Source: Cyanobium sp. Aljojuca 7A6 (GTDB taxonomy: Bacteria > Cyanobacteriota > Cyanobacteriia > PCC-6307 > Cyanobiaceae). From it: 64,000 nt of DNA. The translations under genes and the position numbers were made by a program. Of this stretch, positions 17,675-23,896 are shown piece after piece; the stretch's first letter is position 1, and every line of letters begins with the position of its first letter. The notes below the pieces were generated by a model. It saw only the letters and a list, made by a program, of their open reading frames with translations, ran no database searches and was not told the origin of the DNA. The DNA is taken from NCBI RefSeq assembly GCF_024346455.1, contig NZ_JAGQCY010000003.1, positions 186,001-250,000 on the forward strand, given 5' to 3'.

Positions 17675-18106
17675 TCAGGAGAGGGTGTCCCCGACGGCCC
17701 CATCCAAGGGCAACAGCCAGATCGAACCGGTTTCCTTGTGGATCTCGATTCTGAACTCCTGACCCGGTTCCAGCCCCATGCGCCGGGTGTAGGCCTGGCC
17801 GATCAGCAGGTTGCCGTTGCCGTGCACCCGGGTGCGGAATTCAGCCTGACGTCCCTTCCCGACCCCACTGGCAGCGCCGCTGGCGGCCCCACTCGACGGC
17901 AGGGTGTAGCCCTTGGCGGCCACCAGGGCCCGGTAAAAATTCTTCTTGAGCACCCTTCCGCTTGGCCCCACATAGCCGCAGGCACGGGCGATCTGGTCCT
18001 CCGGCCGGTTGCTGAGCGAGCGGGCCCTCTCCAGCAAGGCCTGGCCCTCCAGCATCACCGCCCCGGCTGAGTTGTCCTCATTGGCTGGTCCTTTCTGGGC
18101 ACCCAT
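17675..18106 (-). CDS. cyAbrB-like transcriptional regulator
   Basis: The N-terminal half has the cyanobacterial pattern LEGQALLERARSLSNRPEDQIARACGYV followed by NFYRALVAAKGY. The C-terminal half, about residues 92-143, is the AbrB-type swapped-hairpin DNA-binding domain (FRTRVHGNGNLLIGQAYTRRMGLEPGQEF). Such C-terminal AbrB domains are specific to cyanobacteria and regulate carbon, nitrogen and redox genes. ATG 18106 gives 143 residues; ATG 18055 (MLEGQ) would give the shorter classical form. The AT-richer 70 bases between this gene and ctaE probably hold its promoter. Confidence 0.8.
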   Translation of the reverse strand: MGAQKGPANEDNSAGAVMLEGQALLERARSLSNRPEDQIARACGYVGPSGRVLKKNFYRALVAAKGYTLPSSGAASGAASGVGKGRQAEFRTRVHGNGNLLIGQAYTRRMGLEPGQEFRIEIHKETGSIWLLPLDGAVGDTLS

Positions 18107-18176
18107 CAGCCGGTCAGACGGAGACTTCTGAATTGATTGTGCCGATCGTTGTGCTGAACAGGCAACAGTCAGGGAA

Positions 18177-18779
18177 TCAAAGCAGGTAAAGAATGCCGTA
18201 AAGCACCACCCAGATTCCGTCGACGAAATGCCAGTAGAGCTCTGCGGCTTCCAGACCGAAGGGGGCGGCACTGGTGACGCGACCTCCCTGGCGGGTCTGG
18301 AACCAGACCAGGAGGATGCAGATCACCCCGAGGGTGACATGCAGCCCGTGAAAGCCCGTCAGGGCATAGAACGTGCTGGCGAAGAGGTTGTCGGTGAGGC
18401 CGAAGGGCAGAGTGAAGTACTCGATCATCTGCCCGGCCAGGAAGGCGGCTCCGAGGCCTGCGGTAAGCAGCAGCCAGGCGCGGCAGGGGCCCATCTGGCC
18501 CAGCAGCAGATGGCGGCCCGAGCGGTGGAAGGTGTAGCTGCTCACCAGCAGCAGCATCGTGTTGATCGATGGCAGCAGCAGTTCCAGCTCGTAGGTCGAC
18601 CCCGCCGGCAGCGGATTGACCGCACGGAAGGTGAGATAGGCGGCGAAGAAGCCGGCGAAGGTCATGCCGTCGGCCACCAGGAAGGTGGCCAGACCAAAAA
18701 GCCTCAGGTCCGCATGGCCTTCGTGGGCCTCGGCGGTGACCGCTTCGGCGGCGCTGGTGCTGGTGGCGAGGCTGGTCAT
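18177..18779 (-). CDS. ctaE: Cytochrome c oxidase subunit III
   Basis: This 200-residue subunit of the aa3-type terminal oxidase has five predicted membrane helices. Family landmarks include LFGLATFLVADGMTFAGFFAAYLTFR, a conserved Glu in GQMIEYFTL, and FYALTGFHGLHVTLGV. ATG 18779 gives MTSLATSTS; upstream in-frame residues are Pro-rich and overlap ctaD, so they are excluded. It is the last gene of ctaC-ctaD-ctaE. Confidence 0.93.
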   Translation of the reverse strand: MTSLATSTSAAEAVTAEAHEGHADLRLFGLATFLVADGMTFAGFFAAYLTFRAVNPLPAGSTYELELLLPSINTMLLLVSSYTFHRSGRHLLLGQMGPCRAWLLLTAGLGAAFLAGQMIEYFTLPFGLTDNLFASTFYALTGFHGLHVTLGVICILLVWFQTRQGGRVTSAAPFGLEAAELYWHFVDGIWVVLYGILYLL

Positions 18780-20542: not shown

Positions 20543-21421
20543 TCAGGCGGTGGGGGTGCTGGGAGCACTGGCGACCGTGGCTGTCACAGGGCTGTTCTTC
20601 TGGAGCCAGGCGTCGTAGGCATCGGGTTCGTGCACGATCACGGTGGAGCGCATGCCGCCGTGGTACGGACCACAGAGCTCGGCGCAGATGATCGGGTAGC
20701 TGCCCGCCTTGGTGGGGGTGAAGGTGAGCACGGTGGGCTGGCCGGGGATCACGTCCTGCTTGAGCCGGAACTGGGGCACCCAGAAGGCATGGATCACGTC
20801 ATTGGCCTTCATGCGCAGCTCCACCGGCCGGCCATTGGGCACGTGCAATTCGCCGCTGGTGATGTCCCCTTCCGGGTAGTGGAAGATGAAGGCGAACTGC
20901 ATGGCCGTCACCTCCACCGGCAGGACATTGGCTTCGCCGGCTCCGGTGCCGATGCCCCCCCAGACCCGGGCTGCGGGCTCCTGGCCTCCCTCGGCGGAGC
21001 TGACGGACGCCTCCATGGTCTCCATCGCGGGCATCTGATGCATGGCGGAATGGTCGTTGAGGCTGCTCATGCCGCCCATCCGCTCATAGATGTCGTAGCT
21101 GTAAATGCCCACGAACAGGACCACGATCGCGGGGATCGCGGTCCAGACGATCTCGAGCAGCAGGTTGCCCTCGATCGCCAGCCCGTCGGTGTGGTCCCCG
21201 GCCCGACGACGGAACCGCACCAGGCTGAACACCACCAGGCCGACGATGCCCAGGAACAGGATCGTGCCGATGCTGAACAGGACCCGGAACAGGGAGTCGT
21301 AGACAGGCGCGTTGGCGCTGGCGTCGAGGGGCAGGAGGTCGACGTTGTAACCCACCCAGAGGCCGGAGAGGACGAGCGCCATGCCCACCAGCAGGGTGAC
21401 CAGGGAGGAGGGAATCGGCAC
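20543..21421 (-). CDS. ctaC: Cytochrome c oxidase subunit II
   Basis: The 292-residue subunit has two N-terminal membrane helices (about residues 5-25 and 50-75) and a periplasmic cupredoxin domain with the complete CuA motif CAELCGPYHGGM. A loop between these parts is Met- and His-rich. It accepts electrons from cytochrome c or plastocyanin. The frame is open far upstream, but homologs start near IPSSLVTLLVG, so GTG 21421 is used. Repeat copy A with its palindromes lies 70-160 bases upstream and is the likely promoter/operator of ctaCDE. Confidence 0.92.
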   Translation of the reverse strand: MPIPSSLVTLLVGMALVLSGLWVGYNVDLLPLDASANAPVYDSLFRVLFSIGTILFLGIVGLVVFSLVRFRRRAGDHTDGLAIEGNLLLEIVWTAIPAIVVLFVGIYSYDIYERMGGMSSLNDHSAMHQMPAMETMEASVSSAEGGQEPAARVWGGIGTGAGEANVLPVEVTAMQFAFIFHYPEGDITSGELHVPNGRPVELRMKANDVIHAFWVPQFRLKQDVIPGQPTVLTFTPTKAGSYPIICAELCGPYHGGMRSTVIVHEPDAYDAWLQKNSPVTATVASAPSTPTA

Positions 21422-21488
21422 GGAGTCGGCGGCGGGACGGCTGTCGGGAGGGTGGAGGGCTCCTGAGGTCAACAGCTTATGGAAGGCC

Positions 21489-21582
21489 GTTCGCGGGCCG
21501 TGCGTTCGTTGTAGCCAGAGAAGCAATTTCGGAGAAATTTCACATTCAGTTCGCACGATGTGCGGATTCGCACATCTTTCAA
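21489..21582. repeat. 94-bp direct repeat, copy A, upstream of ctaC
   Basis: This segment matches 22800-22893 without gaps, with about nine mismatches by eye. It contains two inverted repeats. One is AATTTC-GGA-GAAATT at 21525-21539. The other is GATGTGC with GCACATC at 21557-21576. It lies 68-161 bases upstream of the ctaC start, on the opposite strand to ctaA's copy. Because the elements are palindromic they can act in either direction. An operator shared by both arms of the cta cluster is the simplest reading. Confidence 0.8.
21525..21576. promoter_or_regulatory. Candidate palindromic operator for ctaCDE
   Basis: Two inverted repeats (6-bp arms with a 3-bp spacer, and 7-8-bp arms with a 4-6-bp spacer) sit in an AT-rich island in otherwise GC-rich DNA. 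Both are kept in the second copy near ctaA. The rest of the 470-base gap 21422-21893 shows no supported gene or terminator. Confidence 0.45.
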
Positions 21583-21893
21583 GGCCAGGCAACTTCGTTG
21601 CCCGCCATCGCGCCTGTCCAGGGCCAGGGCCGCTGCTGCCCTGCCGCCGTTGTTCGTCAGCGCTGGCGGACCAGGCTGGTGAAGTTGGCGAGGGTCTGGC
21701 CTGAGTCTCTCGGCAATGGTGGCAAGAGCCGGGCCAGCAGGGCCGCCATCGTGATGTCCCCCTCAGCCCTGTGTCGTGGCCCATGGTCACTGCGAACATG
21801 AGCCAGACCCACGCCCGGCTGAGGCGATCGGCTGCCGGGATCCCGTGAGCCTGAAGAGCCTCACGCCTCCAGCCGCACCTGAGCGGAGCTGCG

Positions 21894-22790
21894 ATGCCCT
21901 TCACCCACGAGCAGATCCAGAGGCTCCGCCACCGCCATCGCGGCTACATCCTCACCCTCGCCACCGAGGTGCTGCTCATCCTGATGCTGCCGTTCTGCCA
22001 GTCGCACGTCTGGCTGCTCTCGGTGCTGCTGATTGGCCTGGCGGTGGTGCTTGTCACCACGGTGACGCGCTACTCACCCCTGATCAGCACCCGTCCTCTG
22101 CTGTATGGCCTCGGTGGCCTGGCGCTCGCCCTGGAGGTGGTGTGGCATCTGGCCCTGGCCTTCGATCCACCCCTGGGGCGCCTCATCACGGTGCCGCATG
22201 TGATCGCCTGGCTGCTGTTTTTTCTGGTGGCGCTGATGCGCAAGGTGAAGACCCTGGTGCGTGAGCCCTTCGTGACGCTGGCCGTGGTGATGGGTGCCAC
22301 CTCCGGCTACCTCTTGATCGGCATCGCCGGCGGGGTGATGCTGGTGGCCCTGTGGGTCCTGCATCCGGGCGCCTACGACCTCTCCGCGCTGCCGGTGCTC
22401 CAGGATCGCGGCTCTGACGCCGTGGCGATGGCGCCGGCGCTGATGGCCGCTTCGTTCACGATCCTGACCAGCGTGGGGTCGGAGGTGCTCCGCAGCAGCG
22501 ACGTGACCGGGCAGGTGATCACGGTGGTGATCACCATTGCGGGGCAGCTGTACATCGCCATCCTCATTGCCCTGATCCTGGGCCGCTTCCACAGCAGGCC
22601 AGGGGGGGGAGGGCCTTGCCGCCGTCCCGTTCCCATCGGGAGGGCCACCAATCCTCGATCCGCTGACCCGGGATCACCCCACGCCCCACTTCGGCGTCCG
22701 TCAGGGGGCGGACCTGGTGCCGGGGATCTCCAGTGGCGATCGCCTCCGCAGCTGGAGCGCAGGGCTGGCTGGCGATGGCGCGCCCGTTGA
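21894..22790 (+). CDS. Ion-channel (two-membrane-helix pore) family protein
   Basis: Residues 18-150 contain several hydrophobic helices. Residues 183-232 look like a K+ channel pore unit: a pore helix (LMAASFTILTSVGSE), then the exit helix GQVITVVITIAGQLYIAILIALILG. The filter position reads TSVGSE (192-197) rather than TVGYG, so ion choice is uncertain. After residue 235 the sequence becomes Pro/Arg/Gly-rich, starting at a run of eight G at 22602-22609. That tail may come from a frameshift (one more G would bring a stop at 22664). The gene sits between ctaC and ctaA and is flanked by both repeat copies. Confidence 0.7.
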   Translation: MPFTHEQIQRLRHRHRGYILTLATEVLLILMLPFCQSHVWLLSVLLIGLAVVLVTTVTRYSPLISTRPLLYGLGGLALALEVVWHLALAFDPPLGRLITVPHVIAWLLFFLVALMRKVKTLVREPFVTLAVVMGATSGYLLIGIAGGVMLVALWVLHPGAYDLSALPVLQDRGSDAVAMAPALMAASFTILTSVGSEVLRSSDVTGQVITVVITIAGQLYIAILIALILGRFHSRPGGGGPCRRPVPIGRATNPRSADPGSPHAPLRRPSGGGPGAGDLQWRSPPQLERRAGWRWRAR

Positions 22791-22799
22791 GGCAGGGCG

Positions 22800-22893
22800 G
22801 TTCGCGCACCGCGTGTTCGTTGTAGTCAGAGAGGCAATTTCGGAGAAATTTCACATTCACTTCGGACGATGTGCTGATTCGCACATCTTTCAA
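22800..22893. repeat. 94-bp direct repeat, copy B, upstream of ctaA
   Basis: This is the second copy of the element at 21489-21582, in the same orientation. The first inverted repeat is at 22836-22850 and is identical to copy A. The second is at 22868-22887 and differs by one base in the loop-proximal position. It ends 37 bases before the ctaA start, so it probably holds the ctaAB promoter. Confidence 0.8.
22836..22887. promoter_or_regulatory. Candidate palindromic operator for ctaAB
   Basis: It carries the same two inverted repeats as near ctaC. Conservation of both arms between the copies, while flanking bases differ, suggests selection on a protein-binding site. No matching regulator gene can be named from the window; the cyAbrB gene at 17675 is nearby, but linking it is speculative. 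Confidence 0.45.
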
Positions 22894-22930
22894 TGCCCGC
22901 TAACTTGGGCACCCGGAAGACCATTCGTTC

Positions 22931-23896
22931 ATGGCTGTGGCGCCGTCCACGCAACCCCTGCCCTTGCCCCGGTCCGCCCCCGGGGAGAGCTGGCCCGTGC
23001 GTCTGGTGCCCCTCCTTACTGCCCACCTCGTCGTCGCCCTGGTGGCCCTGGTGGCCATCGGTGGCGCCACCCGGGTGATGGAGGCGGGACTGGCCTGCCC
23101 GGACTGGCCCCTCTGTTACGGGGTGCTCTGGCCGGGCCGCCAGTGGAATCTGCAGGTGTTCCTGGAGTGGTTTCACCGCCTCGACGCCTTCCTGGTGGGC
23201 ATCGCCCTTCTGCTGCTCTTCGCCCTCAGCCTGCGGTTCCGTGACCGCTTTCCCGCCTGGCTGCCCTGGAGCTCTGGCCTCGGCCTGGCTCTGGTGGCTG
23301 TGCAGGGAGCTCTTGGGGCCCTCACCGTGCTCAGCCAGCTGGCCGCCCCGACCGTCACCCTGCACCTGGCCACCGCCCTCTGCCTGGTGCTGTTGCTGAG
23401 CGCGATGCACCAGGGCTTGGAGCGCCCGGAGCCGGCGAAGGCGGGTGCCGATGGCAGGGCCCTGCCGCGCTGGTGGTCCACCCTGCCGGTTCTGGCCGCC
23501 CTGCTTGTCGGAGGCCAGTGCCTGTTGGGTGGTGCCATGGCCAGCCGCTGGGCCGCCGATCTCTGCCTCCAGGCCGGAGAGGGTTGCCGCTGGTTGCTGC
23601 TGCATCGTCAGGGGGCCTACCCGGCAGCCGTTGTGGTGCTGCTGCTGGCCGCCAGCGCCCTGGCCCTGCCGGCCGGCCACCGTCGTCTCCAGGGCCTGTC
23701 CTTTGCCGCTGCCGCCTTGGTGGTGGTTCAGGTGGCCCTCGGGGTCTTCACCCTGCGGCTCCAGTTGACCGTTCCCGCCGTCACCGTCGCCCACCAGCTC
23801 ACGGCCGCCCTGCTGGTGGCCGTGCTTGGTGGTCTCTGGGGTCTTTCGTTCCAGTCCCCTTCCGTCCCTACCCGTCTTGAGGTGGCCCATGGTTAG
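22931..23896 (+). CDS. ctaA: Heme A synthase (COX15/CtaA)
   Basis: The 321-residue membrane protein has eight predicted helices. It shows the family segments [21 protein letters not shown] and [10 protein letters not shown] (heme-ligating His and adjacent Glu) in the first half, and [10 protein letters not shown] and [11 protein letters not shown] in the second half. It oxidises the methyl group of heme O to give heme A for cytochrome oxidase. ATG 22931 follows repeat copy B. Its stop overlaps the ctaB start by eight bases. Confidence 0.93.

Follow-up and report, generated by a model that had tools for sequence, protein, structure and literature searches.

The 64-kb stretch of DNA analysed here (the window) carries the cytochrome oxidase genes on both strands, with ctaC (COX2), ctaD (COX1) and ctaE (COX3) on the minus strand and ctaA (COX15-CtaA) and ctaB (UbiA) on the plus strand. 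The family match places ctaA, the gene for haem A synthase, at 22931-23896 (+). For ctaC, the gene for cytochrome oxidase subunit II, the longest open reading frame (20543-21904, minus strand) extends across one of the repeated blocks described below, and a conserved GTG start codon lies at 21421. Because conservation points to this GTG as the start, which would give a ctaC of 20543-21421 (-), both blocks are considered intergenic.

Two blocks in the same orientation, 21489-21582 and 22800-22893, lie between these operons, with ctaCDE on one side and ctaAB on the other, as the first-pass annotation had described. It had also estimated that the two match without gaps at about 85 of 94 positions, and our recount gave exactly 85/94; the runner-up ungapped match to the block within the window, on either strand, reached 42/94. 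A repeat search lengthened the pair to direct repeats of 120 nt at 85%. Taking repeat search and alignment together, we refer to 21485-21604 as the C copy (ctaC side, conserved core 21505-21579) and to 22796-22915 as the A copy (ctaA side, conserved core 22816-22890); blocks and palindromes are given without a strand. The two inverted repeats noted earlier inside the blocks were exact in both copies. The first, P1 (AATTTCGGAGAAATT), is located at 21525-21539 in the C copy and at 22836-22850 in the A copy. The second, P2, is a 20-bp dyad of the form GATGTGC-N6-GCACATC, located at 21557-21576 in the C copy (GATGTGCGGATTCGCACATC) and at 22868-22887 in the A copy (GATGTGCTGATTCGCACATC). Allowing three mismatches or fewer, TTTCNNNGAAATTTCACAT matched twice in the window, against 0.05 matches expected by chance.

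We searched the 120-bp block in 300 genomes of the family and obtained matches in 16 of them, 15 of which belong to the same genus; the sixteenth, 26 bp long and located elsewhere, was at chance level. The genomes with the block belong to the Cyanobium group, a set of freshwater cyanobacteria; among the matching records are Cyanobium sp. Cruz CV13-4-11, Aphanothece saxicola, Synechococcus sp. BO 8801 and Microcystis elabens FACHB-917. In Synechococcus sp. CS-1328, the block was not detectable. Two blocks are present in each of the 12 genomes in which a channel-like gene separates ctaC from ctaA. In five genomes that lack this gene at cta (G005, G113, G208, G226 and G268), ctaC and ctaA are directly divergent, with a single block between them. 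The gap between ctaC and ctaA spans 1009-1509 bp with the insert compared to 197-212 bp in the one-block genomes. Direct divergence was also found in all 39 further relatives measured, at a distance of 103-340 bp.

Palindromes, a length of about 100 bp and the presence of two copies are features that the block shares with MITE-like elements, and the arrangement could in principle have arisen from two insertions of a dispersed or mobile repeat near cta. In nine genomes, P2 (one mismatch or fewer) and an extended P1 (three mismatches or fewer) were found only at cta, twice with the insert and once without it. Because both motifs are restricted to cta in this way, the block does not qualify as a dispersed repeat, which would require multiple unrelated loci; no copy was found elsewhere in the nine genomes, even for 20-bp parts. 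The single copy is moreover ancestral at cta and P2 is conserved there in distant relatives, and we therefore find an origin from mobile repeats hardly credible. The pattern named beforehand as speaking against a control element, a block absent from the cta region of relatives and abundant as a dispersed repeat, was looked for and not found. P2 matches in G023 and G258 and a P1-like match in G135 lie away from cta and are most likely due to chance.

The alignment of all copies showed that the single block combines the left flank of the C copy with the right flank of the A copy. Because the flanks of the single block are hybrid in this sense, we infer that a shared promoter already present in the ancestor was duplicated when the insertion took place. 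The corresponding proposal of the first-pass annotation, that an ancestral divergent promoter was duplicated when the channel gene was inserted, is thus strongly supported by the 12 two-block genomes, the five one-block genomes and the 39 divergent relatives.

A consensus scan of the region yielded no sigma-70 promoter, and candidate -10 boxes were recognised by conservation instead. The putative ctaC box, TAAGCT, is located at 21474-21479 on the minus strand (plus-strand AGCTTATGG, 21474-21482) and is present in 12/12 C copies and 5/5 single blocks, but in 0/12 A copies; a CTATGG-type ctaC box occurs in 15/20 more distant congeners. Conversely, the putative ctaA box, TAACTT, at 22901-22906 on the plus strand (inside CGCTAACTT, 22898-22906), is present in 12/12 A copies and 5/5 single blocks, but in 0/12 C copies. 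Its form GCTANNTT was found in 19/20 congeners and in 13/19 genomes of other genera, and both -10-like boxes can still be made out in most of the other genera sampled (13/19 and 14/19). By alignment, a decayed ctaA box can be located in the C copy at 21587-21595 (+), where AGGCAACTT stands against CGCTAACTT, and a decayed ctaC box in the A copy at 22785-22793 (-), where the plus strand reads CGTTGAGGC against AGCTTATGG. In G307, the A copy still matches 29 of 38 left-flank positions. Because the decayed boxes are still visible, the duplicated unit probably held both boxes, of which each copy later lost the one that had become useless. Since the 12 two-block genomes share ancestry, these reciprocal losses may represent few events.

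Between the boxes, a 75-bp core (TTCGTTGTAG to CATCTTT) is kept in both copies. The mean identity of this core between genomes was 0.915 for the A copy and 0.882 for the C copy compared to 0.749 at fourfold sites of ctaC and ctaA, and it exceeded fourfold-site identity in 55/55 genome pairs for both copies. The A and C copies of the same genome were 0.905 identical, which is higher than in shuffled pairings (permutation p = 0.007, not phylogeny-corrected). Because this likeness within genomes is above expectation, some gene conversion contributes. It is quite unlikely, in our judgement, that the two-block state is mainly kept by such homogenisation, with the A or C core not being needed by both operons, because gene conversion alone would not keep the core alike between species above the level of fourfold sites and leaves unexplained why differing flanks stand beside a kept core. 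Gene conversion may thus add to selection on the core but does not replace it. Conservation of this kind suggests that the core serves the cta operons as a dedicated operator.

The two palindromes differ in age. P1 is kept in 7/12 C copies (imperfect in the other 5/12), 10/12 A copies and 5/5 single blocks, and as a palindrome it is confined to this clade. P2 is perfect in 10/12 C copies and 12/12 A copies, and as GATGTGCGGGATCGCTCATC or a close form it occurs in the cta intergenic region of 15 of the 20 more distant congeners, where its offset to the ctaA box TCGCTANNTT is fixed at 11 bp. Within the genus g45, P2 was found in two genomes (G158 and G223) and, in a weaker form, in a third (G205). 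Because P2 reaches distant congeners and a second genus while the P1 palindrome is clade-limited, P2 is the older of the two and predates the insertion. Its depth and specificity argue for a site dedicated to cta. P2 could also form a 7-bp hairpin followed by TTT, and the palindromes might accordingly be read as RNA hairpins in the ctaA or ctaC leaders, serving as an attenuator or stability element and not as a DNA operator. Because P2 precedes the conserved ctaA box at a fixed spacing, it would not be transcribed from that box; in addition, the T-run after P2 is absent in relatives, and an Rfam search of the region returned only a chance-level miRNA match far below the gathering score. We therefore regard an RNA element as very unlikely.

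The gene inserted between the two copies encodes a channel-like membrane protein and is located at 21894-22601 on the plus strand. Its open reading frame misses the usual stop and continues to 22790; in the genome of the window, the frame passes this stop after a G-run near 22602. Searches of Pfam, NCBIfam and PDB sequences with the inserted protein gave no convincing match. The AlphaFold model, which is confident (pLDDT 86.7), consists entirely of long membrane-type helices, and Foldseek detected a weak likeness to six-helix cation channels (best E 0.09; SthK, HCN and hERG). The potassium filter is absent, with TSVGSE in the inserted protein and TTTGYGD in a relative at 29%. As both a TVGYG-type filter and a Pfam channel match are missing, we rejected an identification as a potassium channel. 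Of the earlier designation as a channel gene, the weak likeness in fold stands, but a profile or sequence match and the potassium filter do not back it.

The inserted stretch 21878-22678 (+) is shared, at 86.5% identity, with a TolC/HlyD locus of Synechococcus sp. CS-1328 (L142:3985-4786), and this homology stops about 16 nt before and about 70 nt after the gene. The CS-1328 gene copy itself (L142:4001-4714) is 89% identical and is flanked by a TolC-like gene on one side and an NHLM-type HlyD gene on the other. In G148, G280, G257 and G308, homologues likewise adjoin TolC genes. Because these more distant homologues also adjoin TolC genes, a secretion locus is a plausible source of the insert, and the data suggest a filterless channel-like family linked to export loci.

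To reconstruct the history of the insertion, we compared two trees. In the tree of ctaC and ctaA, the one-block genomes G226 and G268 are basal and outside the two-block genomes, G113 and G208 are nested beside the two-block genome G132 (99% ultrafast bootstrap), and G005 is also nested, although weakly placed. Monophyly of the two-block genomes was rejected by this tree (AU test, p = 1.7 × 10−5) and also by an independent permease gene 35 kb away (p = 1 × 10−4). Because both trees reject it, G113 and G208 are read as nested losses. The spacer 5′ of the inserted gene is homologous among the two-block genomes, which fits a single insertion. The simplest history is thus a single insertion followed by one or more losses. 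In the nested one-block genomes, both boxes are intact and a remnant of the insert is absent; most simply, the insert would have been lost through recombination between the repeats. The inserted gene is broken in G090 (C1:3131149-3131653) and G286 (C78:38512-39240) while both blocks persist, apparently an intermediate state on the way to loss.

The channel-gene tree partly differs from the cta tree, as would be expected if G005, G113 and G208 had never had the insert and two-block alleles had spread laterally by homologous recombination at cta. The nesting of one-block genomes in the cta tree and the independent marker tree, the rejected monophyly and the homologous spacers make this course of events rather unlikely, although the two trees argue only in part against lateral spread of the insert alone.

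We consider it likely that the blocks are an ancestral bidirectional promoter that was duplicated at the insertion, followed by reciprocal box loss, selection on the core in both copies and reversal by recombination. According to this model, an ancestral control region between divergent ctaCDE and ctaAB would have carried both outward -10 boxes. The channel-like gene would have been inserted once, in the ancestor of a Cyanobium subclade, leaving the whole control region on both sides, and each copy would then have dropped the -10 box no longer facing a cta operon. The palindromic core would remain under selection in both copies because each operon needs it. A dimeric regulator would bind P2 immediately upstream of the -10 box of ctaA (about -26 to -45, assuming a transcription start 7 nt past this box). 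Probably acting with P1, the regulator would also serve ctaC, on the opposite side. Once the operons were separated, both copies would have been needed, and the two operons would still respond together. The direct-repeat orientation of the copies allows recombination to delete the insert and rebuild an intact single promoter, a step that at least one nested lineage appears to have taken.

A shared operator with joint control of both operons, the other possibility raised by the first-pass annotation, fits the retention of the whole core in both copies together with the loss of the unneeded box. A table in PMC13421787 lists RpaA as controlling both ctaAB and ctaCDE in Synechococcus elongatus PCC 7942, the same two operons under one listed regulator, and joint control therefore has a precedent. 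We looked for a link between RpaA and P2 and found none. A cyAbrB-like gene (PF14250) is located at 17675-18271 (-) directly after ctaE. Most genomes of the genus have a close homologue next to cta, which makes the gene a candidate for a local regulator; we weighed it as the regulator acting on P2, but nothing was found that connects it to P2. More tentatively, P2 could be the sole genomic target of an oxidase-dedicated regulator, and the two copies could have kept coordination while enabling expulsion of the insert and restoration of the promoter.

With 12 split, five closely related unsplit and 39 more distant unsplit genomes, the locus is a natural experiment on what a shared bacterial promoter needs, in which parts required for a single direction can be told from those required for both. 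A candidate 20-bp operator, apparently reserved for the main respiratory oxidase of picocyanobacteria, is a further outcome, and the locus suggests a route by which a gene can enter or leave a tight divergent pair without breaking its control.

The geometry of P2, TGTGC-N6-GCACA within about 20-22 bp, resembles that of CRP/FNR-type operators, for which the dyad is TGTGA-N6-TCACA. P2 was rejected as a member of this type because a letter of its half site differs (TGTGC/GCACA), and it has one target locus per genome in contrast to the global CRP regulon. A literature search for cta promoter motifs in picocyanobacteria retrieved none. Duplication-degeneration-complementation is a concept from gene-duplication theory, and a literature search for its application to a bidirectional promoter in bacteria returned nothing relevant. 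To the first-pass annotation we add that the single block is a hybrid, that the -10-like boxes were lost reciprocally, that P2 is old and was found only at cta, and that nested one-block genomes point to reversals. The locus follows duplication-degeneration-complementation in that sub-elements were lost in a complementary manner (12/12 versus 0/12, in both directions) and common parts were kept, but it departs from the usual case because the bidirectional promoter alone was duplicated and the genes that it serves stay single-copy.

The nrsRS/nrsBACD promoters of Synechocystis have been named divergent promoters (PMC4182526). The one-block relatives conform to such a shared divergent promoter, as both operons diverge from one intergenic region of 197-212 bp, and the interval between the ctaC and ctaA starts displays conservation of a regulatory type, in the core relative to fourfold sites and in the occurrence of P2 among congeners. 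Two outward -10-like boxes, a central palindromic core and functionally linked operons complete the likeness; unlike in other shared divergent promoters, two copies here flank an inserted gene, with one outward box per copy.
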